DNA of 42,438 nt from a virus: positions 1 through 42,438 of the IMG/VR virus record IMGVR_UViG_3300037504_000632. One strand, given 5' to 3'. Numbering within the stretch: position 1 is the stretch's first letter; each line of letters begins with the position of its first letter. The notes beneath the pieces are model-generated. The model did no database searches. It worked only from the letters and a program-made list of their open reading frames with translations, and was not told the DNA's origin. Positions 5,590-32,577 of this stretch are shown here, in pieces. The translations under genes and the position numbers were made by a program.

Positions 5590-6324
5590 ATGGATTTTCC
5601 AGAAATCCCGCACGTCATTACGGTCACACACTCCGACCGGCTCGATTTTTTGCGCCGGACGATCCCGGCCCTGCTGCGCACCAGGTGGCCGATGACGCTC
5701 ACCCTGGTAGCAAATCGGCCATCGGATCGGATGCGCTATTATCTGAGCCTGATCGAGTCATTTTTGTGGCGACTCATTATCAATGATGAGAATCTGGGCA
5801 AGGCCGGGGGTGGCAATATCGGCTGGCGGCTACGGGATGCCGATCATACTATTTTTATAGATGATGATATGCTGGCCCTGCGCCCCGATTGGCTGGCTCA
5901 CCTGATTGATATTGCCGATAATTGCCCATCGGTCGGGGTGGTCGGCCATTCCGTCGAGCCGAGGGAGTGGCCGATTGATCGGATTGAGGGTCGGGCTGTG
6001 CAGCGCAATCGAGGCGGGTTGGTCGGCGGGGCCTGCATGCTGATCCCGCGCCGGGCGTATGAAAAATGTGGGCGGTATGATGAGGAGCTGATCCCATATA
6101 GTGAGGATGATGCGCTCTACTGCTGGAAAGTGCGATTGGCCGGGCTGGAATGCGTGTATGCCGATCACACCGAGCGGGGGCGGGCATTCCGGCATTTGGA
6201 AAATGGGGATGATCGGGCATACCGCGCCTGGAAGGATGAGCAAAGAGCCAGAGCGATTCCGATCAGGGATCAATTATATCAGCAGTACCGGGCGGGAGAT
6301 CGCCCGCTAAATTTTAGCCAATAG
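5590..6324 (+). CDS. Glycosyltransferase, GT2-like (GT-A fold)
   Basis: This encodes 244 residues. The N-terminal Rossmann-like part (8-70) ends in NDENLGKAGGGNIGWR. The DDD metal and nucleotide-sugar site is at 91-93 (TIFIDDDML), and an EDD acid motif is at 172-174 (IPYSEDDALYCWK) where GT2 enzymes have the catalytic base. The enzyme should transfer a sugar from a nucleotide donor. It is translated directly after the tail terminator (GAGGAG binding site) and just before the major tail gene, so a virion protein is a plausible acceptor. Host surface glycan is the alternative. Confidence 0.85.
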   Translation: MDFPEIPHVITVTHSDRLDFLRRTIPALLRTRWPMTLTLVANRPSDRMRYYLSLIESFLWRLIINDENLGKAGGGNIGWRLRDADHTIFIDDDMLALRPDWLAHLIDIADNCPSVGVVGHSVEPREWPIDRIEGRAVQRNRGGLVGGACMLIPRRAYEKCGRYDEELIPYSEDDALYCWKVRLAGLECVYADHTERGRAFRHLENGDDRAYRAWKDEQRARAIPIRDQLYQQYRAGDRPLNFSQ

Positions 6325-6336
6325 GAGGCGCAAAAA

Positions 6337-6813
6337 ATGGCAAGAGACAGTTTACCGACTTTTGATGGCCCGTATTCGCAATTTTACTCGATTGTGACTA
6401 CGGAGGGGGATGTGGTTCTGGGCCAGGTACGGAATATTTCGTACCAGGATCAAATAGAGACGGCCCGTGTGGGCCGGGTGGGGGACAGCACGAAAAAGAC
6501 CTTGCTCAAGACGAAGAATCCGACATACCAGATCGACATCTGGACCGATCAGGATCTGTACGAGGTAGCTGTTGCTCTGAATGCGACAGCTACGCCGGGC
6601 AGCGGTGATACCGTCAAGCTGGATACGACGGCGGGTGAGATAACACTCAAAATAAAAACATACGATGGCACCGGGGCGAGTGCAGCACTACAGTATACTA
6701 CATACATCCAAAATGCCGTGCCCACCCAGGCCTCTCAGGCCTGGGATGAGGATGGGGAGAATGTGGTATCCGTTACCGGCGAATGCGAGGATATCTATAG
6801 CGTGCGGGCCTGA
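6337..6813 (+). CDS. Major tail (tube) protein
   Basis: This encodes 158 residues. The strong AGGAGG site is consistent with high expression. The protein is beta rich with segments such as VVLGQVRNISYQDQIETARVG and ends in VVSVTGECEDIYSVRA, fitting the small tail tube proteins of siphoviruses. It lies before the tail chaperones and tape measure, separated from them by a glycosyltransferase gene. Its stop overlaps the next ATG by one base. Confidence 0.75.
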   Translation: MARDSLPTFDGPYSQFYSIVTTEGDVVLGQVRNISYQDQIETARVGRVGDSTKKTLLKTKNPTYQIDIWTDQDLYEVAVALNATATPGSGDTVKLDTTAGEITLKIKTYDGTGASAALQYTTYIQNAVPTQASQAWDEDGENVVSVTGECEDIYSVRA

Positions 6814-7862
6814 TGAAAAAAATCCTTCTGATCTGCGATGGGGGCGGCGTATCTGAATTTTACCGATCCGCCACCCCCTACCGAATGCTGGCCCAGGCCG
6901 GCCATATCGAGATCGAATCTGATCCGGGCGATAACCCGGCCCTGATCGACCGGCTCGATCAATTCGATGCGGCCGTTTTCAGCCGATCCGATACAGATAT
7001 CCATTCGCTGATTATCCGGGAGTGCAAAATGCGCGGTATCCGGGTGATCTACGATGTGGATGATAATCTCGATCTGATTCCGCCCTCCATCGGGGTATTC
7101 CAGGCGTGGCATGTGCGCGGAAAAAATGCGATCACGCCCCGGCTATGGCATTTCAAGCGGAATGTCGCTATAGCCGATATTCTCACCGTATCCACCCCGG
7201 CCCTGGGCCGCCAATTATGCGACGGCTATCCCCGTCGCCTGCGGGAGCGGGGTGATTACCTGGTGCTGCCAAATCAGATTTTGGCCGATTCCTGGCGAAA
7301 TATCAGCCCCACCCCGGAGAAAAAGCCGGGTGAGGTGTGGGTGGGCTGGTGGGGAATATACAATCATTGGGATGATTGGCGCGATATCGCCCCATACATC
7401 GAGCCGGTAATCACCGCCCGCCCGGAGGTGCGCCTGGTGATTCTGGGCATGCCGGAGTTATCGCATCTATTCCCGGCTCTGGTAGAGAGCGGCCAGCTAT
7501 TGGCCGGGCCGTTTATCGAGCCGGCCAGCCTGGATGGGTATCGCCAATTTGTGGCCGCCTTCGACATCGCCCTCGCCCCGACATCGCCCTGTCCGTTCAA
7601 TGAGTCTAAATCCGATCTCAAATTGCTCCAATACGGCGCGGCGGGCGTGCCGGTGATTGCCAGCGAGGCGACATACGGCGATTGGGAGGACAGGCCGGGC
7701 ACAATCATTTTGTACGGCCCGGATCAATGGGGCTACATCCTGGATGAGTGGCTGGATGATCTCGATACGCTCAGGGCCGAGGCCGTCGGGCTGAGGCGGC
7801 ATATTTTGCAAAATCGGACATACGAGGCCAATTATACCAGGTGGCTGGAGGCGATAGGATGA
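6813..7862 (+). CDS. Glycosyltransferase, GT-B fold, family 4-like
   Basis: This encodes 349 residues. The N-terminal domain has MKKILLICDGGGVSEFYR and an acidic YDVDDNLDL segment at 80-88. The C-terminal donor-binding domain has ESKSDLKLLQYGAAGVPVIA at 264-283, a GT4-like motif in which the second acidic residue of E-x7-E is replaced. The gene overlaps the major tail gene by one base and the chaperone gene by four bases, so it is locked into the tail operon. This supports modification of a tail protein. It is not closely similar to the third glycosyltransferase at 14979. Confidence 0.75.
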   Translation: MKKILLICDGGGVSEFYRSATPYRMLAQAGHIEIESDPGDNPALIDRLDQFDAAVFSRSDTDIHSLIIRECKMRGIRVIYDVDDNLDLIPPSIGVFQAWHVRGKNAITPRLWHFKRNVAIADILTVSTPALGRQLCDGYPRRLRERGDYLVLPNQILADSWRNISPTPEKKPGEVWVGWWGIYNHWDDWRDIAPYIEPVITARPEVRLVILGMPELSHLFPALVESGQLLAGPFIEPASLDGYRQFVAAFDIALAPTSPCPFNESKSDLKLLQYGAAGVPVIASEATYGDWEDRPGTIILYGPDQWGYILDEWLDDLDTLRAEAVGLRRHILQNRTYEANYTRWLEAIG

Positions 7863-12677: not shown

Positions 12678-14982
12678 TCTGCTAGATCCGACCACCGGAT
12701 TTGTGGCCGGGAATCAGCCGATCAGGACAGCCAGCCGGGTGCGGCGCACGCTGGGCCTGGACCGAATCGGCAAATGGGCATTCGATGTATCGGTGGCAGA
12801 CCCGGCATTCGAGAATATCGAGGGTAGCGATTTTCGGGTGTATTGGGCCAGCGGAGGCGATACGCATCTGCTGGGCGAATGCAGCTATCTCGATCACGGC
12901 GTGCAGGCCCAGGCCGGAGGCGCGGCGGTCTCGGTGCAGGCCAGCGGGCGACTGCGAGATCTGGCCCGCCAGACCGTGCTGCAGCGATCTTTTGATGGAG
13001 CGACCGATACCGTGAATGATGTACTGAGCGAGATCGTGCCGCTCAGATCGGGCTGGTCTCTGGGGGATGTGGACACAATCACCACGCCCGCCCCGATGGA
13101 TTTCTGGTACGAGACGGTGTATGACGGGGTGCGGCTGCTGGCAGAGACATTTGATTACCATTTCCGGGAGGGAGCGACCAGCAAGACGCTCGATTTTGGC
13201 GCATTCGGGGATGATAGCGGTCTGCTGCTGGTCGGCGGCTCTCAATTCGCCTCCGTTTCGGGGATGCGGCGCACCCGCAGCGTGGCCCGGATCGAGCAGA
13301 TCGGGGTATCGTATCGGGGCGGAGATGTGGTCAATCGGTTGATCCCGTTTGGCGGAGCGGTCGGGGTGGCGACGATTGATCTGAGCGAGACGACATCCAC
13401 CCAGGCCGGATACCCGGTGCAATCGGCGGCCCTGCCCGGCGGGGGGAGCTACTATTATCTCGAAGATTCCGGCAGCATCAGCACGTATGGCCTCACCGAG
13501 CGGAGATTTTTGCGCAAAGATCTGCGGCCCATCTCCAACAGCCCGGCGGCGCGGGAGTATGCGGCCAATATCCTGTACGAGGCGACCCTTGCCAGCCTGC
13601 TCAGGCTGAAGGACCGGCAGATCACATACGATGTATCGGTGGCCGACTGGCAGCCGGGCCTGGTCCAGCCGGGCGACAAAGTGAGGCTGATGTTCCGGGG
13701 CTTCGCCCAGGCGCGTGACAGCAATGGCGGATTGACCTGGCTGGATATAGATGATGAGAGCCAGCCGGGGCAGGGCAAGGAATTTTATATCCTCGAAATT
13801 TCCGAGGAGTTCGGGGACGGGGTGCGGGCCAGCCTGAAGCTGAACGAAAACGGGGTCAGCGAAAAAACGACCGAGAATCTCTTGGCCGAAACGATCCGGG
13901 CCTTTGAAACGGCCCAGATCCACGTGCAACCGACGATCAGCCGGTACACGCAAGGGCCGTATGTGAAGCGGGTCTCCCAGGCCGATAGCGTGAGCGCCGA
14001 TTTTACAATTACGCTCGGACCGGAGACGCTCGATATCTGGTACGTGAAAATCCAGGTCGTCGGCGAGCCGCTCAAAAGCTCCGTGAAATCGGTGGTCGAT
14101 GACGGTGGCACGACGGAGACCAGCACCGATGATGGTAGCGTGGAACAGACCACCGCCGGCGGCGGGGGGATCAATCAGACGACGCTGGGGGGCGGGGGGA
14201 TTAATAAGACGACGCTCGACGGCGGGGGGATCAATAAGACGACGCTCGGCGGCGGCTCGATCAACAAGACGACCCAGGGCGGACAGGCCCACAGCCATTC
14301 ATTGACGCTAGTGGATCACGTTCACGCCGTGAATACATCGGATCATACTCACAATGTCACGATCAAGAATTCATTAAATACATCATTACCGACATTGCGC
14401 TACGATTCATCTGATAGCTCATTTCCGATCAAAAAAATCGGCACGGCCGGCGCGCCGGACGATGCGCAAACAAGTTCCAGTGACGGCGGGGAAAATCTTA
14501 CATCCGAAGACGGCGGAGGCACGACGGAAACATCATCGGATGAATCGACGCATACCCACAGCGTATCGGTAGCCGATCATACCCACAGCGTATCGGTGGC
14601 CGATCACACCCACAGCGTATCGGTGGCCGATCACACCCACAGCGTATCGGTGGCCGATCATACTCATAGCGTATCAATCGAGGCCCACTCCCACAGCGTC
14701 ACCATCCCGGATCATACCCACGCCACCCAGTATGGCATTTTCGAGGATACCCAGCGACCCGATTCGCTCACAATCCGGGTCAACGGCTCGATTGTTGCCA
14801 GCGGGGTCACGCTGGATGCCGGGAATGATTACACATACGAGCTGGATATTACCAGCGATATCCTGGCGGCGGCCACGCTGCAGCAGGATCACACAATCAG
14901 GATCGAGCCGGGCAGCGGGCGGGGAGATGTGATTTTTCAGGCCCAGATTCTGGCCGTCATCCAGGGGATTACGGTATCATGA
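12664..14982 (+). CDS. Tail-tip protein (Tal / baseplate hub-like) with His-x-His repeat fibre
   Basis: This encodes 772 residues. The N-terminal 400 resemble the tail-tip hub proteins that follow the distal tail gene (RVRRTLGLDRIGKWAFDV..., VSYRGGDVVNRLIPFGGAVG..., ITYDVSVADWQPGLVQPGDKVRL). Residues about 495-540 are a 10-residue repeat (GGGGINKTT type). Ten HxH motifs then follow in two groups, including seven in tandem units of HTHSVSVAD. The C-terminal 95 residues are beta rich. HxH pairs bind iron in trimeric fibre tips such as T4 gp37. The protein probably contacts the host. No peptidase motif was found. Confidence 0.75.
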   Translation: MIRIDLLDPTTGFVAGNQPIRTASRVRRTLGLDRIGKWAFDVSVADPAFENIEGSDFRVYWASGGDTHLLGECSYLDHGVQAQAGGAAVSVQASGRLRDLARQTVLQRSFDGATDTVNDVLSEIVPLRSGWSLGDVDTITTPAPMDFWYETVYDGVRLLAETFDYHFREGATSKTLDFGAFGDDSGLLLVGGSQFASVSGMRRTRSVARIEQIGVSYRGGDVVNRLIPFGGAVGVATIDLSETTSTQAGYPVQSAALPGGGSYYYLEDSGSISTYGLTERRFLRKDLRPISNSPAAREYAANILYEATLASLLRLKDRQITYDVSVADWQPGLVQPGDKVRLMFRGFAQARDSNGGLTWLDIDDESQPGQGKEFYILEISEEFGDGVRASLKLNENGVSEKTTENLLAETIRAFETAQIHVQPTISRYTQGPYVKRVSQADSVSADFTITLGPETLDIWYVKIQVVGEPLKSSVKSVVDDGGTTETSTDDGSVEQTTAGGGGINQTTLGGGGINKTTLDGGGINKTTLGGGSINKTTQGGQAHSHSLTLVDHVHAVNTSDHTHNVTIKNSLNTSLPTLRYDSSDSSFPIKKIGTAGAPDDAQTSSSDGGENLTSEDGGGTTETSSDESTHTHSVSVADHTHSVSVADHTHSVSVADHTHSVSVADHTHSVSIEAHSHSVTIPDHTHATQYGIFEDTQRPDSLTIRVNGSIVASGVTLDAGNDYTYELDITSDILAAATLQQDHTIRIEPGSGRGDVIFQAQILAVIQGITVS
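14146..14283 (+). repeat. 30-bp tandem repeat coding GGGGIN(K/Q)TT
   Basis: Four 30-bp units and a partial fifth code for QTT-AGGGGIN, QTT-LGGGGIN, KTT-LDGGGIN and KTT-LGGGSIN. The units differ by a few substitutions. The repeat probably makes a flexible or collagen-like stalk before the HxH region. Confidence 0.9.
14551..14727 (+). repeat. 27-bp tandem repeat coding HTHSVSVAD
   Basis: Six 27-bp units and a partial seventh each begin with the codons for His-Thr-His or His-Ser-His. Units 2-4 are nearly identical at the DNA level, which indicates recent slippage or duplication. Confidence 0.95.
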
Positions 14983-16067
14983 GAATTTTATGGCATAGCT
15001 ACAATCCGCAATCGACATTTTCCTACGGCGTCCTGTCCCGGCGCATTTTGCCGCACCTGGTTGACGCCGGACACGAGGTGATTGTGGCCGCGATGCTATC
15101 GGGGGTGGGATTCCGGCCATTCGATCTTGATCTTGATGGCCGCCGGATCAAGATCATATCATTTAATAGCTCCGGCCTGATCGGAGAATTGGCCGGGGCT
15201 GTCGAGGCGGATCGCACCGCCCTTTGCTGTGATGTGCATCGTATCCCGCCGGATGTGATGGAGCGAATCGGGGTGCATGCCTGGTCGCCGGTGCATCACG
15301 ATTTTGAGACAGATAGCGTGCTGGCCGGTTTCCGGGCCGCCGGTGGGGTGGCGATCTACTCCGATTGGGGGACGCGATCTCTGGCCCAATTCGGGATCGA
15401 GGCCGATCATATCCCCTGCCCGGTCGATCTGGACGTGTATGCCCCGGCTGATAAAATGGAAGCCCGGCGGCGGCGATTTCGGGAATTTGGTGATTATTTC
15501 CTGATCTCGATGATCGGAATCAATCGCGATTTTGATAGCAAAGGCTACTCGGAGGCATTACAGGCATTCGCCATTTTCGCGGGCAAGCACCCGGAGGCCC
15601 GGCTCTATCTGCACACAAATCGAGGGGGTGGTATGGCTCTGGATCGGATGATCGAGCGGCTGGGCATTGCCGGGCGGGTGTGGTTTCCGCCCGAAATGGA
15701 ATCGAGCGCATTTTTATTGGGGGATGATTACATGGCCGATCTATTCAATGCCAGCGATGCATTCCTGAATACATCGCGCTGGGAGGGATTCGGTCTGCCG
15801 GTGCTGGAGGCCCAGGCCTGCGGCGTGCCGGTGATAGCTCCGGCGGCCCACGCCACCGAGGAGATCATTTTCAATGGCTGGCCGGTATCGGGGCAATGGA
15901 TGTTTGCCAGAGATTCGCACAAGATTTTTGTGTGCGATGTCGACAGCATCGTAGACGCGCTAGAGGAATCGTTCACCGGACGGAGGGCACGGCTCAGGCC
16001 GGCGGAGGTGATGGGATTCGATAGCAAAATTATCGCCGGGCAGATAGAGGCCTGGCTGGGAGGCTAA
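14979..16067 (+). CDS. Glycosyltransferase, GT4 family (GT-B fold)
   Basis: This encodes 362 residues, starting in an ATGA overlap with the tail-tip gene. The N-terminal domain begins MRILWHSYNPQSTFSYGVLS. The donor domain begins near 172 (YFLISMIGINRDFDSKGY) and has the classic E-x7-E motif at 269-277 (WEGFGLPVLEAQACGVPVIA). This is the best-preserved of the three glycosyltransferases. Its lock to the tail-tip gene, and position before two likely fibre genes, suggests it decorates a tail-tip or fibre protein. Modification of host glycan is the alternative. Confidence 0.88.
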   Translation: MRILWHSYNPQSTFSYGVLSRRILPHLVDAGHEVIVAAMLSGVGFRPFDLDLDGRRIKIISFNSSGLIGELAGAVEADRTALCCDVHRIPPDVMERIGVHAWSPVHHDFETDSVLAGFRAAGGVAIYSDWGTRSLAQFGIEADHIPCPVDLDVYAPADKMEARRRRFREFGDYFLISMIGINRDFDSKGYSEALQAFAIFAGKHPEARLYLHTNRGGGMALDRMIERLGIAGRVWFPPEMESSAFLLGDDYMADLFNASDAFLNTSRWEGFGLPVLEAQACGVPVIAPAAHATEEIIFNGWPVSGQWMFARDSHKIFVCDVDSIVDALEESFTGRRARLRPAEVMGFDSKIIAGQIEAWLGG

Positions 16068-25472: not shown

Positions 25473-26516
25473 ATGCAATCATCATTTTGGCAGCAGGTGC
25501 AGCAGATCGCGTCATTCCAGATCGACACGCCGGCCTACCGGCAGTTCGTGCGCGATACTTCCGGTCGTCGTTTGGGTGACAGGGTGATCGTCTCCTGCCA
25601 GGCCGAATGGCAGCGGGATTGGCTCGATGTCCGCCTGCGCCCCCGCATCGAGGAGGCGGTCCGGGCGGTGGCCGGTGAGCCGCTGGCCGTCGATTTTGTG
25701 GTCAATGGCAGCGAGCCGCCCGATCGGGCCGATGATGATCCCCCTCCCGTCCAGGCCGCCGAAGCCGATCCCCCGGCCCTGGATCAAATCCAGGCCGAAC
25801 AGCTGGCCGGGCTGGATCACATGGCGGCGGGCTGGGCCAAGCACAGCCATTATCTGGCCCAATTTTGGCGATCCTACCTGGGCAGCACTCCATTTGATGT
25901 GTGGGATTTCCTCCGCTCGATGGGCCGCGATTCCCGGCTGCAATGGGCCGAGCCGGTGGAGATCAGGGCGGTGGAGCTGGCCCGTCGGGTGGGAGCGCAC
26001 AGCCAGCAGATCACCGGCGTATGGCGCACCTGCCACCGATTCGATCAGGCCCTCCGGGATGACGGCCTGATCTGGGAGCAATGCTGTGGCCTGCATCCCG
26101 GCAGCCTCACCCGCCTGCGCCCTTCTGCCGATTGGCCGCAGGGCCGCCCGGCCTGCCGTTTCTGGCGGCACGGCGCGCTGGAAATCCTGGAAGCGGAGGG
26201 ACTGGCCGTCTACCAGAAACATGGCGACCAGCCACGAAGCACGTACTACTCGGTACAGATCTACCAGCATCCGCCTCTCCTCACCCCCCGCCAGGCCGAC
26301 AGACTGGGCCGGGTGCGAGTCGATCACCGGCGATGGCTACGCCGGTTTTTGCGGGAGCAAAAAATTGAGCTATCGGCCTGGGAGCAGGTGCGGGCCTATT
26401 CATTTCTGGCCCTGCGTGATCGGCGGCGGCTTCTGGCCGGCCTTGATCTGCCCGCCCCCGACAACGGCGTTTTAAGTGCAATTGCACGTAATAATATTTT
26501 TTTTGCTTCCAATTGA
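25473..26516 (+). CDS. Replication initiator-like protein with DnaA domain-I-like N-terminus
   Basis: This encodes 347 residues. The N-terminal 75 (FWQQVQQIASFQIDTPAYRQFVRDT...VIVSCQAEWQRDWLDVRLRPRIEEAVRAVAGEPLAVDFVV) match the pattern of DnaA domain I. After an acidic linker (80-110), a helical and winged-helix-like region follows (150-260: EIRAVELARRVGAHSQQITGVWRTC, then FWRHGALEILEAEGLAVYQK). There is no AAA+ ATPase. This is the likely DNA-binding initiator of replication. It sits just before palindromes that look like an origin, and its last bases contain the first of them. Confidence 0.6.
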   Translation: MQSSFWQQVQQIASFQIDTPAYRQFVRDTSGRRLGDRVIVSCQAEWQRDWLDVRLRPRIEEAVRAVAGEPLAVDFVVNGSEPPDRADDDPPPVQAAEADPPALDQIQAEQLAGLDHMAAGWAKHSHYLAQFWRSYLGSTPFDVWDFLRSMGRDSRLQWAEPVEIRAVELARRVGAHSQQITGVWRTCHRFDQALRDDGLIWEQCCGLHPGSLTRLRPSADWPQGRPACRFWRHGALEILEAEGLAVYQKHGDQPRSTYYSVQIYQHPPLLTPRQADRLGRVRVDHRRWLRRFLREQKIELSAWEQVRAYSFLALRDRRRLLAGLDLPAPDNGVLSAIARNNIFFASN

Positions 26517-26689: not shown

Positions 26690-27568
26690 ATGACAAGAGA
26701 GATGAATCTAGAACAAGTAGAAGTCGACAATTCATTCAATCCCCGCATCGGCGCACTCGATCAGGATGCGGTGAATGAATACGCCCAGCACATTGAGGCC
26801 CTGCCGCCGATGGTCGCCTTCGAGCTGGAAGGCCAGAATCGGACGGTGTTGGTGTGTGGATTCCATCGCTACGCCGCCCACCAGCTGGCCGGAGCGGAGA
26901 CGGCCAGCTTCGATATCCGGCAGGGCACGGAGGATGAAGCCAGAGAGTACGCCGATCTGGACAATCTCCGGCACGGCATCCGGCTCACCCGCTCCGAGAA
27001 AAGGCTCGTAATCCGCCGTTATCTGGCTCGCAATAGCCGGATGTCTGATTCGGTGGTGGCGCGGGCCTGCCACACCACCGACAAAACGGTGCGCTCCGTG
27101 CGCCGGGAGATGGAGGCGACCTCGGAAATTCCGAGGCACGAGAGTCTGGTCGGGGCGGATGGTGTGGAGCGACCTCGCTCGATCAGCCGCCCCCCGCCCG
27201 AACCGGACGGGCCGCCTGCCGGCAATATCTCATCCACTATCACCGGCGGGCCTGATCCGGATCACCGGTCCGATGATCGGGCGGCGGATATCGCGCCCCC
27301 GCCTGCCCCGACCGCTGCCCAGGTCGCTCCGCCGCCCCCGCCTCCCCCGTCGCCGGCGGTCAGCCGTCCGGCCCTGGTCATCACGGCCAGCGTGCCGGAT
27401 GATGGACCGGTGGTGGTATCGGCCAAGCGGGGGGATGTGATGCTTGGCCTGGAGAGCGGTAGCAAATATGACCTGGGTCGCCTGGCCCAGGATATGATGG
27501 AAGAATACATAAATCAGCCGCCGGATAAAGAGTGGCTGGAGGAGAGTGAAAATGGCAACGCTGTATAA
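26690..27568 (+). CDS. ParB-like nuclease/partition protein
   Basis: This encodes 292 residues with the site GGGAGAACG before the ATG. N-terminal motifs NSFNPR (14-19), and CGFHRYAAHQLAGA (about 61-74), match the ParB/sulfiredoxin superfamily, the second being the DGxHR-like segment. A helix-turn-helix follows (RMSDSVVARACHTTDKTVRSVRRE), then a proline-rich linker. Such proteins bind centromere-like DNA and, with CTP in some members, slide along it. In PRTRC gene sets a ParB-like gene stands at this place. TGCAATTGCA palindromes just upstream are possible binding sites. Confidence 0.75.
   Translation: MTREMNLEQVEVDNSFNPRIGALDQDAVNEYAQHIEALPPMVAFELEGQNRTVLVCGFHRYAAHQLAGAETASFDIRQGTEDEAREYADLDNLRHGIRLTRSEKRLVIRRYLARNSRMSDSVVARACHTTDKTVRSVRREMEATSEIPRHESLVGADGVERPRSISRPPPEPDGPPAGNISSTITGGPDPDHRSDDRAADIAPPPAPTAAQVAPPPPPPPSPAVSRPALVITASVPDDGPVVVSAKRGDVMLGLESGSKYDLGRLAQDMMEEYINQPPDKEWLEESENGNAV
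27120..27136. repeat. CTCGGA-N3-TCCGAG palindrome, copy 3
   Basis: CCTCGGA-AAT-TCCGAGG has 7-bp arms. It lies inside the ParB-like gene, at the codons after its helix-turn-helix. Confidence 0.85.
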
Positions 27569-27782
27569 ATATCAGGCTGGCGATGTGCTGGTCCAGTTCG
27601 TGGATGAAGAGGATCAGTACCAGCCGGATCAAATCAAAAATCACTGGCGAGAGACCTACCCGGCCCTCGCCAACTGCACCACCGATATCAGCGATACGCC
27701 GGTAGAGACGGAGGTGGACGGCCAGAAATATGAGATCGACCGGACGGTGGAGTTTGTCAAGCGGGTGGGCACGAAGGGATGA
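27552..27782 (+). CDS. Ubiquitin-like protein, PRTRC system C / Prok_Ub family
   Basis: This encodes 76 residues. I chose the ATG at 27552 because GGAGG lies eleven bases before it. It has a beta-rich start (LYKYQAGDVLVQFVDEE), a central helix segment (PDQIKNHWRETYPALANCTTD) and a final strand EFVKRVGTKG. The ending GTKG with no residues beyond glycine is characteristic of PRTRC C proteins, which Pfam places in a prokaryotic ubiquitin family (from memory). A free C-terminal glycine can be adenylated by the E1-like protein without processing. It overlaps ParB by 17 bp and the next gene by 4 bp. Confidence 0.75.
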   Translation: MATLYKYQAGDVLVQFVDEEDQYQPDQIKNHWRETYPALANCTTDISDTPVETEVDGQKYEIDRTVEFVKRVGTKG

Positions 27783-28006
27783 TTGATATCCTGATTGCCG
27801 CCCTTCATCCCGCCCCCCAGCCCGGCCTTGATCTGATCGAGATCGTGATCGGCCTGGACGATGCGGCGGAGGCAATGGCCATTGCCTCACAGATTGAGGC
27901 GGCCCAGGAGGATCTGGCCGACCTCTCCAAGCGATCCAGGGAGGCGGTGCGCAGATGCACGGAATTGAGGCCCTCGCCGGCCAATTTCGTTCCTCTCGGA
28001 TTTTGA
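27779..28006 (+). CDS. Small helical protein in the Ubl cassette
   Basis: This encodes 75 residues, starting in an ATGA overlap with the Ubl gene. A hydrophobic start (MIDILIAALHPAPQPGLDLIEIVIGL) is followed by an Ala, Glu and Asp rich helix. I recognise no family. It stands where some PRTRC sets carry an additional component. The last 52 bp overlap the next gene, and its end could be an extension without function. Confidence 0.4.
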   Translation: MIDILIAALHPAPQPGLDLIEIVIGLDDAAEAMAIASQIEAAQEDLADLSKRSREAVRRCTELRPSPANFVPLGF

Positions 28007-28848
28007 GGCCGTACTCCCTGCTGGCCCGCTATCGCCCGGTCCGCCTGGGTGTGGTGGCCCGCCAGCTGCGTAATGCGGGCCGCTCGATGCGGGTGATGCG
28101 ATTGATCGAGCGGCATTTTCCCCAGGCCGTCCGGCCCGCCTTCAGTGAGGCGGCCAGCATCGAGGGCTGGCTCTACCTGATGCGGGAATTTCTGGATATG
28201 GTAGATGAGCAGTGGTTCGAGATCGACTGGGAGCTACTCGATGGGCTGTATGAGGCCGCCCAATCTGTGGGCTGGGATGATGATGATAATGAGCCGGAGG
28301 GGATCAGGATGATGGCCGATTTGCTGGTCAGGATTCCGCACCGGTCCGTCCGGCCCGGCCGGGAGGATCTGGAGAATGACGAGTCTCTGTCCGCCGTCCA
28401 GATGGTCGCCGCTGTCCAGGATGAGATCGTCACGAGCTATGATATGATGGAGATCATCTGGGAGGTTGGCGAAATGCCGGGGGAAGAGCCGGATGATCTG
28501 TACGAGGCCAGAGACCGGCTCTGGTATGGCGATTGGAGCGATTTTGAGCCGCCCCTTTGCCATATCCCGGTCGTGGCCGAGATTGTAGCCGGGGAGACCG
28601 GCAATCCATTTTTGGATGCGGAGGCCGGATGGCGCAGGATATATGATGAATGGGATATGATGTACGAGTGGGACTGTCCCGACGATGTCGAGAAATTGCG
28701 CCGGGCCTGGCCGGAAGCGCAGGGGCGTATCGAGGCATATGAAGAATTTGTCAGGTGGGCCGCCGATTACGAGCATTTTGATGATCGACTGCGGGCGGTG
28801 TCCCGCGCACTATTTTATGGAGAAAGGAAGTGGAGGAGTAATGATTGA
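27955..28848 (+). CDS. Acidic helical protein, candidate PRTRC system F
   Basis: This encodes 297 residues, starting inside the previous gene. It is mostly helical, acidic and rich in Trp and Tyr (VDEQWFEIDWELLDGLYEAAQSVGWDDDD; WDMMYEWDCPDDVEKLRRAW). Length and position after the Ubl gene agree with PRTRC protein F, but I cannot confirm this from sequence. It could be an unrelated phage protein. Its stop overlaps the start of the nuclease gene (28841). Confidence 0.4.
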   Translation: MHGIEALAGQFRSSRILRPYSLLARYRPVRLGVVARQLRNAGRSMRVMRLIERHFPQAVRPAFSEAASIEGWLYLMREFLDMVDEQWFEIDWELLDGLYEAAQSVGWDDDDNEPEGIRMMADLLVRIPHRSVRPGREDLENDESLSAVQMVAAVQDEIVTSYDMMEIIWEVGEMPGEEPDDLYEARDRLWYGDWSDFEPPLCHIPVVAEIVAGETGNPFLDAEAGWRRIYDEWDMMYEWDCPDDVEKLRRAWPEAQGRIEAYEEFVRWAADYEHFDDRLRAVSRALFYGERKWRSND

Positions 28849-29566
28849 TCTATCAGTATTCGATAATATTCAGTTCGATGGCATTCGCCATCGCTATTTT
28901 TGCAACGGGGGGCTGGAGCTGAAAAGCGTCACCAGGCGGTTATCTGCCCTCAAGCCCAGATTCGACGCCGATTTTTGGGCCAATCGCAAGGCCAGGGAGC
29001 GCGGTGTCGAGCCGTCGGTCATCCTGGCCGAGTGGGAACAGAAGCGGCGGGATGGCCTGGAGCGGGGCAGCCGAGTGCACGAGGCGATACAGGCCGTGCT
29101 TGATCCCGAAAGCGGGGCGGTCAACCGGGCCGCCGATCTGCCGGAATTTCGGGCATTCCAGAAATTCTGGCTGGATGCGGGCCAGATTCTGCTCGGCCCG
29201 CTTGGGGTGGAGCAGATTGTCGGTTCGGTCGGCTGGAGAATCGCCGGCACGGTCGATCTGGTGTACACCGACGGCCAGAATCTTGGCCTGATCGACTGGA
29301 AGTCCGGCCTCAAATTCCGTACCGAAAATGATTACGGACGGCTGCTCCCGCCGTTTGACGACCTCGACAATTCCGAGCTGGCGAACTACTCGCTGCAGAT
29401 CAATCTGTATCGCCTGCTGATCGAGCGGGCGACAGGCCGGGATGTGGACGAGGCCTATCTCGTGCATCTGAAGCGGGATGGCGACTACGAATTATACGAG
29501 GCCCTTGATCTGGCCGATCGACTGCACGCCTGGATCACCGAAGAGCCGGAAGAGATTCCATTTTAG
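28841..29566 (+). CDS. PD-(D/E)xK nuclease, RecB/Cas4-like
   Basis: This encodes 241 residues. I chose the ATG at 28841 because it follows GGAGG. The order GSRVHEAIQ (77-85), E124, GTVDLV (136-141, D139), IDWKSG (151-156, D152 and K154) and YSLQINLYRLLIE (183-195, Q186) fits the RecB-type exonuclease core. Such nucleases process DNA ends and commonly work with annealing proteins such as the RAD52-like one encoded at 19252. The gene lies inside the ubiquitin-like cassette, between the F-like and E2-like genes. Confidence 0.8.
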   Translation: MIDLSVFDNIQFDGIRHRYFCNGGLELKSVTRRLSALKPRFDADFWANRKARERGVEPSVILAEWEQKRRDGLERGSRVHEAIQAVLDPESGAVNRAADLPEFRAFQKFWLDAGQILLGPLGVEQIVGSVGWRIAGTVDLVYTDGQNLGLIDWKSGLKFRTENDYGRLLPPFDDLDNSELANYSLQINLYRLLIERATGRDVDEAYLVHLKRDGDYELYEALDLADRLHAWITEEPEEIPF

Positions 29567-29576
29567 GAGGAGGATT

Positions 29577-30110
29577 ATGAATTTCAATGAGTACACCAGG
29601 TTGGCCGCGAAAACGGCCAACGAGGATTTATCATACGAGATCAAGCTGGCCTCTGCCGCTTTAGGGCTATCGGGCGAGATGGCAGAATTGGGCCGGGAAC
29701 TTGAGATCGGTGATAGAGAGGTACAGCTGGAAGAGATCGGGGACGTTTTCTGGTACGTGGCTCGGCTGACCGATTTGCTTGATATCGAGGCTAGCCTATC
29801 GTTTATCTCGATAATATCGACGAAATTGACTGTTGATTGGGCCATGAGCCGTAATCTGATGGGTGGACTTCTGCTGCATAGCCAGGGCCATATCGCCGAT
29901 GCTATCAAGAAGTACCTCGCGCACGGCCACGAGCTGGATCGGGATAATATCGCATCCGCCCTCTCATTTATCTTCGTCGCGCTGGCTCGCATAGCCGAGA
30001 ATCTCGACTCTTCAATTGAGCAAGTGGCCGCTGCCAATATCGCGAAGCTACAGGCCCGCTACCCGGACGGCTTCAGCGAGGAGCGCAGCCGGAACAGGGA
30101 GGACGGATGA
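29577..30110 (+). CDS. MazG-like nucleoside triphosphate pyrophosphohydrolase
   Basis: This encodes 177 residues with an AGGAGGAGG site before the ATG. ALGLSGEMAELGRE (about 22-35) and LEEIGDVFWYVARL (about 46-59) provide the metal-binding E-x-x-E and E-x-x-D pairs. The end IAKLQARYPDGFSEERSRNR is typical of phage MazG-like enzymes. These hydrolyse dNTPs or (p)ppGpp. It has a few regions poorer in GC than its neighbours. It sits with the nuclease as an insertion in the Ubl cassette. Confidence 0.85.
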   Translation: MNFNEYTRLAAKTANEDLSYEIKLASAALGLSGEMAELGRELEIGDREVQLEEIGDVFWYVARLTDLLDIEASLSFISIISTKLTVDWAMSRNLMGGLLLHSQGHIADAIKKYLAHGHELDRDNIASALSFIFVALARIAENLDSSIEQVAAANIAKLQARYPDGFSEERSRNREDG

Positions 30111-30799
30111 CAACATTTCCGATCTTCCCGGCCATTGAATTTTACACCGGCGATTACGCCAGAATCAGAATGGAGCTGTGGCTCTACGATGATTTTATCG
30201 TAGCCTGCCCCTACCGGGATGGCGAGCCGGGTGATGCCTACCTGGTCGATCCCCAGGATGTGGGGGCGGCCCTGGCCGGTAGTTTGCATCTGGGCACGGG
30301 TCTGTTGCCGCAAAATACGCTCTTCTGGCAGCAGCACGGCAGTGAGCAGCGTATCGCGATATGGATACCGCCGAAGCGGTGGCGATTGCGGGTTGCTCCC
30401 GCAGACCGGCCCAATCGGGATATCTTTTTGCCCGCCTTTGCTTTTGTGGGGGAGGGCCGGGCCTACGGCCTGTGGGCCTTGCGGGATGGGCATACATTCC
30501 CGGATGATCTATCGGCCCGGCTCTACCGCGCCCCCGTGCCGAATATGGGCCGGGGCGTGTGCCGGGGGAGTGTGGATTTCCCGGAAGCCGGACCGGATAC
30601 GATAGGCCTGGCCGCCGATCTTTTTTTCGGCAGCAATTTCAATGAGCATCTATCCGACGGCAAGAGCATCAAATACCCAAATTCGATCCTGGGTATGTGG
30701 GATGAGCTGCACGAATCCGGGGAGGAGTACCCCCAGCTTGATCTGATCGACGCCGGATTATCGCTGCGGGATCTGATCGTTGATGGGGGGGAGCTATGA
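30107..30799 (+). CDS. E2-like conjugating protein, PRTRC system B / Prok-E2_D-like
   Basis: This encodes 230 residues, starting in an ATGA overlap. The segment LYRAPVPNMGRGVCRGSVDF (139-158) places Cys152 shortly after a PN motif, as in the HPN...C active site of ubiquitin E2 enzymes. The C-terminal part LFFGSNFNEHLSDGKSIKYPNSILGMWDEL and LSLRDLIV matches the PRTRC B pattern I remember. The expected role is to accept the Ubl from the E1 and pass it to a target. The assignment to the E2 family is inference from these motifs and the gene context. Confidence 0.65.
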   Translation: MTTFPIFPAIEFYTGDYARIRMELWLYDDFIVACPYRDGEPGDAYLVDPQDVGAALAGSLHLGTGLLPQNTLFWQQHGSEQRIAIWIPPKRWRLRVAPADRPNRDIFLPAFAFVGEGRAYGLWALRDGHTFPDDLSARLYRAPVPNMGRGVCRGSVDFPEAGPDTIGLAADLFFGSNFNEHLSDGKSIKYPNSILGMWDELHESGEEYPQLDLIDAGLSLRDLIVDGGEL

Positions 30800-31395
30800 T
30801 TCCGAATGGCGTATCGTATCACATTCACCGGCGGCCTGATGATCTGCTCCCGATTCGGTACGGCTTCGTGATGCACCGGGGCGGCGTGGCGAAAGTGGTC
30901 CGCAGCCGATTTTTCCGGGCGGTGACGACGGCGGCGACCGGGCACATCCCCGGCCTGCCGCCGCTGCAGATGGGATTCGAGTGGCTGGCCCCGCCCATTC
31001 CCGTCCGCCTGCTGGCCGTCGTGCTGGAAGATGCGCGGCAATTCGGGCCGGGCGGGACGATGATAGAGCAGATGTACCAATTCCATCTCACCCCCGATGG
31101 CTGGCAGGTGGCCCGGCCCAGGCAGCAGGCTACCGCCGGGCGCATCATCTACCGACCCGGCGATGATCGGGCCGTCGGCCTGGAGCTACACAGCCATCAC
31201 GGGATGAATGCCTATTTCTCGGCTACCGATAATCGGGATGAGGTGGATGGCGGGCGGCTGTACGGCGTGATCGGGCGGATCTACTCCGCTCCGGAGATCA
31301 GGCTCAGGGCCGGGCTGTATGGCGATTGGATACCGGTCCGGGCCAGTCAAATTTTCAATGGGTTGATTCAATTTAAGGAGAGATACGATGAGTAA
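30796..31395 (+). CDS. JAB/JAMM metalloprotease, PRTRC system A-like
   Basis: This encodes 199 residues, starting in an ATGA overlap with the E2-like gene. The JAMM motif is exact: His132-x-His134-x7-Ser142-x2-Asp145 (LHSHHGMNAYFSATD). A glutamate upstream (E79) can act as the general acid-base, as in the family. The enzyme should cut isopeptide bonds or process Ubl termini, with zinc. Fixed gene order E2-like, JAB, E1-like in this genome is the strongest evidence for a Ubl pathway. Confidence 0.85.
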   Translation: MIPNGVSYHIHRRPDDLLPIRYGFVMHRGGVAKVVRSRFFRAVTTAATGHIPGLPPLQMGFEWLAPPIPVRLLAVVLEDARQFGPGGTMIEQMYQFHLTPDGWQVARPRQQATAGRIIYRPGDDRAVGLELHSHHGMNAYFSATDNRDEVDGGRLYGVIGRIYSAPEIRLRAGLYGDWIPVRASQIFNGLIQFKERYDE

Positions 31396-31645
31396 ATTAT
31401 CAAGAATGTCGGATGAAGAGCTGGCCGATTTGATTCGCCGGCATATGAATGAGGGTGATACACTGAATGAGGGTGATACACTGGCCGAGATTGGGCCGGG
31501 TGGATTTGGGATTGATATTCGCTTGCTCTTTTTTATTCTGCTCTTGATCGGGCTGGCTTGCGGGGCAGGCGGGCATTTCAATGAGCGATACACGCACGGC
31601 TATCGTTGCCACGAAAATATCATCGGGCAGACGATATGCGAATGA
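31388..31645 (+). CDS. Small single-pass membrane protein
   Basis: This encodes 85 residues with an AAGGAG site. An acidic cytoplasmic part includes a duplicated NEGDTL. One transmembrane helix (LLFFILLLIGLACGAGG) and a 25-residue tail follow. It lies between the JAB and E1-like genes. I recognise no family. It could anchor the cassette at the membrane or be unrelated. Confidence 0.6.
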   Translation: MSKLSRMSDEELADLIRRHMNEGDTLNEGDTLAEIGPGGFGIDIRLLFFILLLIGLACGAGGHFNERYTHGYRCHENIIGQTICE

Positions 31646-32577
31646 TGCCATACCGGATCGAGCCGGGAGAATTTAGCAGGCTCAATATCTATCTGATCGG
31701 ATGCGGCGGCACAGGCTCATTCCTGGCCCTGCATGTGGCCCGGCTGGCCTGGGCAATGCGGGATCGGGATACAGGTATCGCGATCACATTTGTCGATGGG
31801 GATGATATCGAGGCCAAAAATGTCGGTCGGCAAAATTTCTGCCCGGCGGAAATCGGCTACAGCAAATCCCTGGCCCTGGCCGCCCGCTACAATGCCGCTT
31901 TTGGCCTGCGCATCAGGCCGGTAGTCGGATTTTTCCGGGCCGATGATTTTGAGCGGGAGCTGCATCATCTCAGTATCGGGCTGGATAATCTGGTAGTGAT
32001 CCTGGGAGCAGTCGATGGGCCGTCCGGTCGGCGGGAGATCGCCCGCGTGATGGATACACCCACTCGCCGGAAATGGTGGATAGACGGCGGCAATGACCAC
32101 GAGAGCGGGCAAATTCTGATCGGGAACGGCCATCAGGTGGTGATCTCGGAGACGGGATTTTGCAGCGAATTGCCCCGGCCCGATATCCAAGAGCCGGGCC
32201 TGCTCACCCAGGGCGGCGGCGATGGGTCGGATGATCTCAGTTGTGCTGATCTACTGGTGCGGGATGCTCAGAATCTGATGATAAATCAGGTGATGGCCGG
32301 CTGGATGGCGAATTATCTCTATCGCCTGGTGCTGGCCCGTGATCTCGATCTGATGCGGACCGAGATTGACTTGGGCGGCACGGCTCGCAGCGACAGGATT
32401 CGCGGCGGCCAGATCAGCCGGATAGATGGAGATCGAGCCGGTCCGCCGCTTCTGGATATGGAAATATGCCCCCGATGCGGGGCGGGCCTGGCCGATGGCC
32501 GGGATACTGTTGATGGATTCGAGGTGGATATTATTTTTTGCCCGGCCTGCGACTGGAGGCCGGAGGAGGGTGAGTGA
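31642..32577 (+). CDS. ThiF/E1-like adenylyltransferase of the PRTRC type
   Basis: This encodes 311 residues. I chose the ATG at 31642 for its ATGA overlap; ATGs at 31636 and 31645 are also possible. IYLIGCGGTGSFL (16-28) is the ATP-binding loop. FVDGDDIEAKNVGRQNF (50-66) gives the Asp and Arg residues of the adenylation site, and IGYSKSLALAARYN follows as in E1 proteins. A C-terminal zinc ribbon has CPRCGAG and CPACDW. The protein should adenylate the Ubl glycine and transfer it to a cysteine, perhaps the one in SETGFCSEL. Confidence 0.85.
   Translation: MMPYRIEPGEFSRLNIYLIGCGGTGSFLALHVARLAWAMRDRDTGIAITFVDGDDIEAKNVGRQNFCPAEIGYSKSLALAARYNAAFGLRIRPVVGFFRADDFERELHHLSIGLDNLVVILGAVDGPSGRREIARVMDTPTRRKWWIDGGNDHESGQILIGNGHQVVISETGFCSELPRPDIQEPGLLTQGGGDGSDDLSCADLLVRDAQNLMINQVMAGWMANYLYRLVLARDLDLMRTEIDLGGTARSDRIRGGQISRIDGDRAGPPLLDMEICPRCGAGLADGRDTVDGFEVDIIFCPACDWRPEEGE

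Follow-up and report, generated by a model that had tools for sequence, protein, structure and literature searches.

A ubiquitin-like protein-tagging cassette encoded by a bacterial virus

A bacterial virus carries a full set of genes for a ubiquitin-like protein-tagging pathway, comprising the tag (Ubl), the enzymes that attach it (E1 and E2) and the enzyme that removes it (JAMM), and more than a hundred other virus sequences carry the same set in the same order, which suggests that protein tagging is a widespread and so far overlooked tool of phages. The window analyzed here is the entire 42,438-nucleotide IMG/VR record IMGVR_UViG_3300037504_000632, in which PHROG searches identified TerL, portal, major capsid and tail (Dit) genes (phrog_38, 5e-70; phrog_104, 2e-39; phrog_3990, 5e-27; phrog_33, 2e-15), as is required of a tailed phage (Caudoviricetes). 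The original prediction, made from the sequence alone, was that four genes of this phage form a complete Ubl conjugation cassette of the PRTRC type. The motifs on which it rested are all present where they were described, and its interpretation is supported, although several of its details require correction.

Organization of the cassette

The cassette occupies positions 26690-32577 and is a co-directional unit of ten genes on the plus strand. The first, 26690-27568, encodes a ParB-like protein of 292 aa (phrog_1033, 2.6e-10; ParB_N, 0.0019, below its cut-off), and a ParB-family gene lies within about 250 nt upstream of the Ubl in 36 of the loci listed. The Ubl gene, 27552-27782, starts inside the ParB gene and encodes 76 aa ending in RVGTKG (PRTRC_C, 3.1e-4; Prok_Ub, 5.4e-4). 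The E2 gene, 30107-30799, carries PNMGRGVC with Cys152 as the active residue (Prok-E2_D, 4.1e-12; PRTRC_B, 2.4e-9), and the JAMM isopeptidase gene (PRTRC_A / Prok-JAB), 30796-31395, carries H132-x-H134-x7-S142-x2-D145 (PRTRC_A, 1.7e-11), to which we add the upstream Glu91. The E1-like ThiF-family adenylyltransferase, 31606-32577, carries GCGGTG (residues 32-37), Asp64/Asp66, Arg75 and a C-terminal CPxC..CPxC ribbon (PRTRC_ThiF, 8.9e-35; ThiF, 5.2e-9). The Prok-E2_D and ThiF matches pass the gathering scores of Pfam, and these similarities are not due to chance. The E1 start is more likely the ATG at 31642, which overlaps the stop of the preceding gene (ATGA), than the TTG at 31606.

The four core genes were originally described as one unit; they share a strand but are not contiguous. 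A PD-(D/E)XK exonuclease gene, 28841-29566 (phrog_298, 5.2e-28; PDDEXK_1, 5.2e-7), and a MazG-like pyrophosphohydrolase gene, 29577-30110 (phrog_229, 4.2e-30; MazG, 2.2e-8), are inserted between the gene for protein F (described below) and E2. No relative of the exonuclease was found in the other cassette loci, and one relative of MazG was found among them (L105; L numbers denote the cassette loci compared here). A small protein of 85 aa with one hydrophobic segment, 31388-31645, lies between JAMM and E1 and is specific to the window, without relatives in the loci. Moreover, two cassette genes had been missed. Protein X, 27779-28006, has 75 aa and ends in GF, and its ATG overlaps the Ubl stop (ATGA). 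It is homologous to the domain fused after the Lys-Gly of the Ubl in L087 (2.6e-7) and L088 (2.6e-5), and its family has 44 members, fused or separate. Protein F, 27955-28848, has 297 aa, overlaps X by 52 nt and occupies the PRTRC_F position; its family was found in 56 loci between Ubl and E2, and the same 52-nt overlap occurs in 12 other loci. F is predicted to be all-helical (pLDDT 79.5), and a structure search with this model gave no significant match.

Conservation, predicted fold and precursor forms

A search of viral contigs with the single E1 protein found nothing, and alignments were needed to recover relatives. The alignments yielded 114 distinct viral cassettes, all of which have the order Ubl-E2-JAMM-E1 on one strand. 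Five named phages carry the cassette, one of them truncated. Therefore, the view that a phage carrying it is exceptional is too strong. Active-site residues are near-invariant across 107-129 distinct homologues at 20-50% identity, which argues for kept catalysis. In the JAMM protein, Glu91 is conserved in 98% and His132, His134, Ser142 and Asp145 in 100% of about 125 relatives; the Ubl ends in Lys-Gly in 107 of 107; and GxGGxG, Asp64, Asp66, Arg75, Lys87, Asp137 and Cys213 of E1 are 98-100% conserved.

Two conditions had been named in advance as capable of overturning the proposal, a Ubl without a beta-grasp fold and an E2 with neither an E2 fold nor a conserved Cys152 in its relatives; the proposal withstood both as far as they were tested. 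The Ubl is predicted with high confidence as beta-beta-alpha-beta-beta-beta-beta (pLDDT 92.6) with a loose C-terminal tail, and its best structural matches are Ubl, PB1, NEDD8 and SUMO folds, that is, beta-grasp proteins, although the E-values of these matches are weak (best 0.047, TM about 0.4-0.5). Cys152 of E2 is kept in 125 of 125 relatives and Asn146 in 99%; the fold of E2 was not modelled, nor were E1-Ubl, E1-E2 and F-E2 complexes. Sequence searches of the Ubl, E2 and JAMM against the PDB gave no meaningful match, including no match of E2 to a solved E2, and the myoglobin hits that appeared are chance. The best solved relative of E1 is UBA5 (1e-9), ahead of ThiF (1e-5).

What is new here is the form in which the Ubl is made. 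Tandem arrays of 2-6 Ubl copies occur in 16 cassettes and long fusions in 75, all with a JAMM gene, whereas the four JAMM-less cassettes with a detected Ubl all end at Gly (P=0.007, not corrected for kinship). In relatives the Ubl may be fused to X right after Lys-Gly, whereas the window phage splits Ubl and X exactly there, marking the likely JAMM cut site. Fused and separate Ubl-X both occur, with at least four switches on the E1 tree. The possibility that the split is a sequencing error was rejected because separate X genes recur in other loci with different spacing. A captured plasmid cassette that is decaying or non-functional in this phage would be consistent with the divergence from PRTRC models and with the separation of genes that are fused in close relatives. 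However, all catalytic residues and the Lys-Gly end are intact, the genes are overlapping and coupled, and the same split occurs in at least five other loci (L008, L010, L013, L090 and L101), so it is not a lone frameshift; we consider decay very unlikely.

A proposed conjugation pathway and its possible purposes

We consider, with fairly high confidence, that the cassette is a working phage-encoded Ubl conjugation pathway with JAMM maturation and removal. In this view, E1 adenylates the C-terminal Gly76 of the Ubl and probably takes it as a thioester, for which the conserved Cys213 is the candidate; the Ubl passes to Cys152 of E2, which transfers it to amino groups of target proteins, perhaps guided by F or X. 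The JAMM enzyme would remove the tag and, in relatives, would cut the Ubl out of tandem arrays and fusions directly after Lys-Gly. In this phage that first cut would not be needed, because a stop codon ends the Ubl exactly at Gly76 and X is translated separately from the overlapping ATG. Our analysis itself demonstrates the presence, homology and order of the genes, their intact active sites, the beta-grasp prediction of the Ubl and the split at Lys-Gly, whereas enzymatic activity, the targets and the roles of X, F and ParB are inferences. Covalent transfer of the Ubl was not assayed here, and no biochemical test of any member was found in the literature searched. Mass spectrometry by others lists Gp246 (E1), Gp247 (JAMM) and Gp248 (E2) of Salmonella phage Arash with 5, 3 and 2 unique peptides in particle preparations (PMC10585845); however, the particles contained 116 proteins, and the enzymes there may be carry-over.

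A different chemistry is conceivable. Beta-grasp Ubls and ThiF proteins also serve sulfur transfer, as in ThiS/ThiF and MoaD/MoeB, and E1 matches ThiF-type models, so the Ubl could be a thiocarboxylate donor that E1 only adenylates and sulfurates for a metabolite or a tRNA. This is unlikely. An E2 with an invariant Cys is always present in complete cassettes, no rhodanese, thiazole or molybdopterin gene was identified among the window proteins scanned, and tandem precursors that need a JAMM are typical of modifiers.

The targets and the benefit to the phage are unknown. The most likely purpose, in which our confidence is low, is the tagging of phage or host proteins during infection so as to control the phage's own genome handling or host takeover. 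A second possibility, compatible with the same chemistry and held only tentatively, is that conjugation regulates the ParB-like protein or the replication initiator, so that the phage genome is kept or replicated as an episome, as plasmid PRTRC is often assumed to do. ParB lies directly upstream in the 36 loci mentioned above and in plasmid PRTRC, and a DnaA_N-like gene (25473-26516) lies nearby and is conserved in L008 and L087. Moreover, no tyrosine or serine integrase was found, but an XRE-type regulator is present, and the original description of the genome as lytic-type is neither upheld nor excluded. However, no ParA was found with PF13614, which weakens the idea that ParB implies a ParABS partition system, and large phages such as Arash and Bacillus phage KLEB27-3 carry the cassette with no ParB annotated beside it.

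A third purpose, which we regard as doubtful, is superinfection exclusion or anti-phage defence, in which the Ubl would be attached to structural proteins of competing phages, as bacterial BIL systems do. Bacterial Ubl systems that block phages are known (Hor 2024; Chambers 2024), and E1 has weak similarity to PADLOC E1-E2 defence models (2.8e-7) and to 6A-MBL cap2_3 (2.1e-7). However, no other cassette gene matches a defence model apart from a Cas4-like hit of the exonuclease, and the cassette is conserved also in large phages, where Arash has no apparent lysogeny genes.

Ubl conjugation in bacteria is known as a defence against phages. The complete pathway in over a hundred phage sequences, with catalytic residues kept and with tandem-precursor genes like polyubiquitin, turns the question round, in that phages may tag proteins too, and cultured phages (Arash, KLEB27-3, BgVeeders33 and D69) make this question testable now. 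A bolder reading, which is possible but which we consider less likely than not, is that diverse tailed phages, temperate and lytic, run their own complete tagging pathway during infection, several of them with polyubiquitin-like precursor arrays, to modify host or phage proteins as a takeover or counter-defence strategy; viruses would thus hold the whole E1-E2-Ubl-isopeptidase set instead of borrowing the host's. Among papers on PRTRC together with phage or ubiquitin, none describes a phage-borne cassette, but the search covered no preprints and few subscription papers and is not proof that such a cassette is unreported. Relatives of the window phage point to Chloroflexota as hosts.

Relationship to known systems

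The closest known system is the PRTRC cassette of plasmids and islands (NCBIfam TIGR03735-TIGR03738, TIGR03742), the operon type 6d of Iyer 2006 (PMC1779556). The link to PRTRC is right in homology and in gene order, ParB - (E) - Ubl - F - E2 - JAMM - E1 on one strand, with two insertions in the window. However, the four core proteins score below the curated cut-offs of TIGR03735/36/37/38 (44/101.8, 120.2/144.75, 36.9/131.45 and 20.8/45.95 bits), so this is a divergent lineage. No PRTRC_E or PRTRC_D was found among the ten proteins of the unit; genes outside the unit were not scanned with NCBIfam. Protein X is extra, as are the inserted exonuclease and MazG, and the location is a phage. Of the features ascribed to 6d operons, the standalone Ubl with a C-terminal Gly and the alpha-helical accessory protein (F, as predicted) are present. 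The E2 should have a conserved Cys and an absolutely conserved downstream His; the window has His one position off (FNEHL against FTHPN) and other phages have Asp or His there, so this residue is only partly kept and the comparison decides nothing either way. A JAB N-terminal domain bearing conserved Arg and Trp is not recognized, because the N-terminal region is present but has no Arg or Trp that is shared by the window and conserved in the family.

The cassette of Burkholderia gladioli phage BgVeeders33 (OK665841) is likewise phage-borne, with Ubl-F-E2-JAMM-E1 and a C-terminal extension of the Ubl after VGTKG. Its proteins C, F, B, A and E pass the NCBI cut-offs, so it belongs to the plasmid PRTRC clade, far from the window on the E1 tree. 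The cassettes of Arash, Vibrio phage D69 and KLEB27-3 have Ubl, E2, JAMM and E1 in the same order with the same active sites, but these are large phages with no recognisable F family, and the Ubl is tandem in D69 (3) and KLEB27-3 (4).

The bacterial BIL/Bub and CBASS Cap2-Cap3 defence systems share E1-E2-JAMM chemistry, with weak E1 matches (Citrobacter BubCD, 1e-4, and the cap2_3 match given above), whereas the present cassette has separate E1 and E2 genes, a ParB-linked operon and its own Ubl with a GTKG end, and is phage-encoded. The eukaryotic UBA5-UFC1-UFM1 pathway, to which the E1 match points, also trims a modifier precursor to expose a single terminal Gly; the cassette has a bacterial-type E2 without HPN and a JAMM instead of the cysteine protease UFSP, and no membership is implied. 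Finally, the lambda-type tail proteins TAPI (Ubl) and TAPK (JAB) also bring a Ubl and a JAB together in phage (PMC1779556), but they are part of tail assembly and have no E1 or E2.

Homology and conservation of the cassette

The window is a whole virus record of 42,438 bases. Profile searches against PHROGs identified terminase, portal, major capsid, Dit and minor head proteins; therefore, this virus is a tailed phage. The unit at 26690-32577 lies on the + strand, and its genes overlap or touch one another. The observation underlying the original prediction is correct, because the motifs that it described in four genes, those of a Ubl, an E2, a JAMM protease and an E1, are all present where it placed them. 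HMM scans yielded matches to PRTRC_ThiF (8.9e-35), Prok-E2_D (4.1e-12), PRTRC_A (1.7e-11), PRTRC_B (2.4e-9), PRTRC_C (3.1e-4) and Prok_Ub (5.4e-4). Although Prok-E2_D and ThiF pass the gathering scores of Pfam, none of the four PRTRC models reaches the cut-off of NCBI. Therefore, the cassette is homologous to PRTRC but divergent from it. PD-(D/E)XK exonuclease and MazG genes (28841-30110) are inserted between F and E2, almost exclusively in this phage.

A tblastn search of 50,697 phage records with E1 identified seven relatives: Burkholderia BgVeeders33, a faecal phage contig, three Vibrio phages, Salmonella Arash and Bacillus KLEB27-3. In four of the five that were examined, E1 is surrounded by JAMM, E2 and Ubl genes, which are mostly annotated as hypothetical, and the fifth, the faecal contig, ends in the JAMM gene. 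Scans of IMG/VR with the E1 and JAMM alignments identified 143 and 89 encoding contigs, respectively. Profile searches of the 165 sequences collected found all four genes in 146, which reduce to 114 distinct cassettes, and all 114 have the order Ubl-E2-JAMM-E1 on one strand. Of 77 representative records, 44 match one of two terminase profiles (31 of 77 with phrog_2 and 13 of 45 further tested with phrog_38; other terminase families were not tried). In addition, 368 plasmids carry an E1 relative, with the order ParB-E-C-F-B-A-ThiF in those that were read.

The absence of an E2 fold and of a conserved Cys at position 152 in relatives had been named in advance as evidence against the prediction. 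The E2 fold itself was not modelled, but over approximately 125 distinct homologues, Cys152 of E2 is conserved in 100% and Asn146 in 99%. In JAMM, Glu91 is conserved in 98% and His132, His134, Ser142 and Asp145 in 100%; in E1, GxGGxG, Asp64, Asp66, Arg75, Lys87, Asp137 and Cys213 are conserved in 98-100%; and the Lys-Gly of the Ubl is conserved in 107/107. This conservation is much stronger than the overall identity of 20-50%. A C-terminal CPxC..CPxC zinc-ribbon-like extension of the window E1 (31606-32577, residues about 287-315) is absent from the phage E1s with which it was aligned.

The ubiquitin-like protein, its precursor forms and the adjacent genes

A predicted fold other than beta-grasp had likewise been specified beforehand as counterevidence. 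The structure predicted for the Ubl from a 56-row alignment (pLDDT 92.6, pTM 0.80) has its strands and helix in beta-grasp order and a flexible tail carrying GTKG. Although the Foldseek E-values are weak (best 0.047), the top of the list consists of Ubl, PB1, NEDD8, SUMO, FERM and other beta-grasp domains.

In 139 distinct cassettes of all sources, the Ubl ends at Gly (or one residue after it) in 41, has a short tail in 7, has a long extension in 75, and is a tandem array of 2 to 6 copies in 16. In Bacillus phage KLEB27-3 (locus L006, 736-1485), four head-to-tail Ubl copies, each ending in GVKG and followed directly by Met, form a polyubiquitin-like gene, and two further loci, L069 and L137, have six and five copies, respectively. 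Every form that would need trimming occurs with a JAMM gene, whereas the four JAMM-less cassettes with a detected Ubl all end at Gly (P=0.007, without correction for kinship). A fifth, L214, has an annotated small protein ending in Gly that the profile did not detect. A detectable JAMM gene is lacking from the PRTRC cassettes L203, L204, L214 and L217, which are located on Vibrio, Thalassotalea and Pseudomonas replicons.

In relatives such as loci L087 and L088, the Ubl continues directly after Lys-Gly into a domain of about 80 residues that ends in GF. In the window, the same domain is a separate gene, X (27779-28006), whose ATG overlaps the TGA of the Ubl. The X family has 44 members, fused or separate, and this state changes at least four times on the E1 tree. 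The split thus falls at the predicted JAMM site and represents a natural experiment showing that Ubl and X need not be linked. Gene F (27955-28848) begins inside X, with the same 52-nt overlap in 12 other loci, and belongs to a family found in 56 loci in the PRTRC_F position between Ubl and E2. The predicted model of F is all-helical (pLDDT 79.5), and no structural matches were found for it.

Phylogeny, expression and inferred mechanism

On a 125-row E1 tree, the window groups with three viral contigs and an Anaerolineae MAG contig (support 98). Plasmid PRTRC and BgVeeders33 form a separate set with other rows (support 99), and large phages such as Arash form another (support 99). Virus, plasmid and genome rows are intermixed, which implies several transfers. 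Many of the nearest genome contigs are Chloroflexota; therefore, a Chloroflexota host is likely, although it has not been shown.

The published proteome of purified Arash particles lists Gp246 (E1), Gp247 (JAMM) and Gp248 (E2) with 5, 3 and 2 unique peptides, respectively (PMC10585845). Because 116 proteins were listed, this result demonstrates production during infection better than it demonstrates packaging. The annotated Gp251 of Arash (locus L005, 102-320) is in a different frame from the Ubl open reading frame at 107-307, and its reported peptides therefore deserve re-checking.

The interpretation in the original prediction, that these genes constitute a Ubl conjugation cassette, is supported, and the parts match a Ubl relay consisting of adenylation by E1, a thioester on Cys152 of E2, transfer to targets, and removal or maturation by JAMM. 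Our analysis demonstrates the homology, order and conservation of these parts, whereas we infer catalysis, the targets, and the roles of X, F and ParB. No ParA was found with PF13614 and no tyrosine or serine integrase was found, so ParB may regulate rather than partition. Operon type 6d / PRTRC has been described in bacteria and plasmids (PMC1779556), and no paper in the literature searched describes it in phages. The window cassette is a divergent form of this operon type, and we consider its breadth among phages and the processing forms of the Ubl to be the notable part. With respect to other genes of the window, the 347-aa protein encoded at 25473-26516 has a DnaA N-terminal-domain-like start (0.0021, below the cut-off), is conserved in L008 (2e-97), a further relative locus, and in L087, and is a possible replication initiator. 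Furthermore, three glycosyltransferase genes (5590-6324, 6813-7862 and 14979-16067) are located in or near the structural region.
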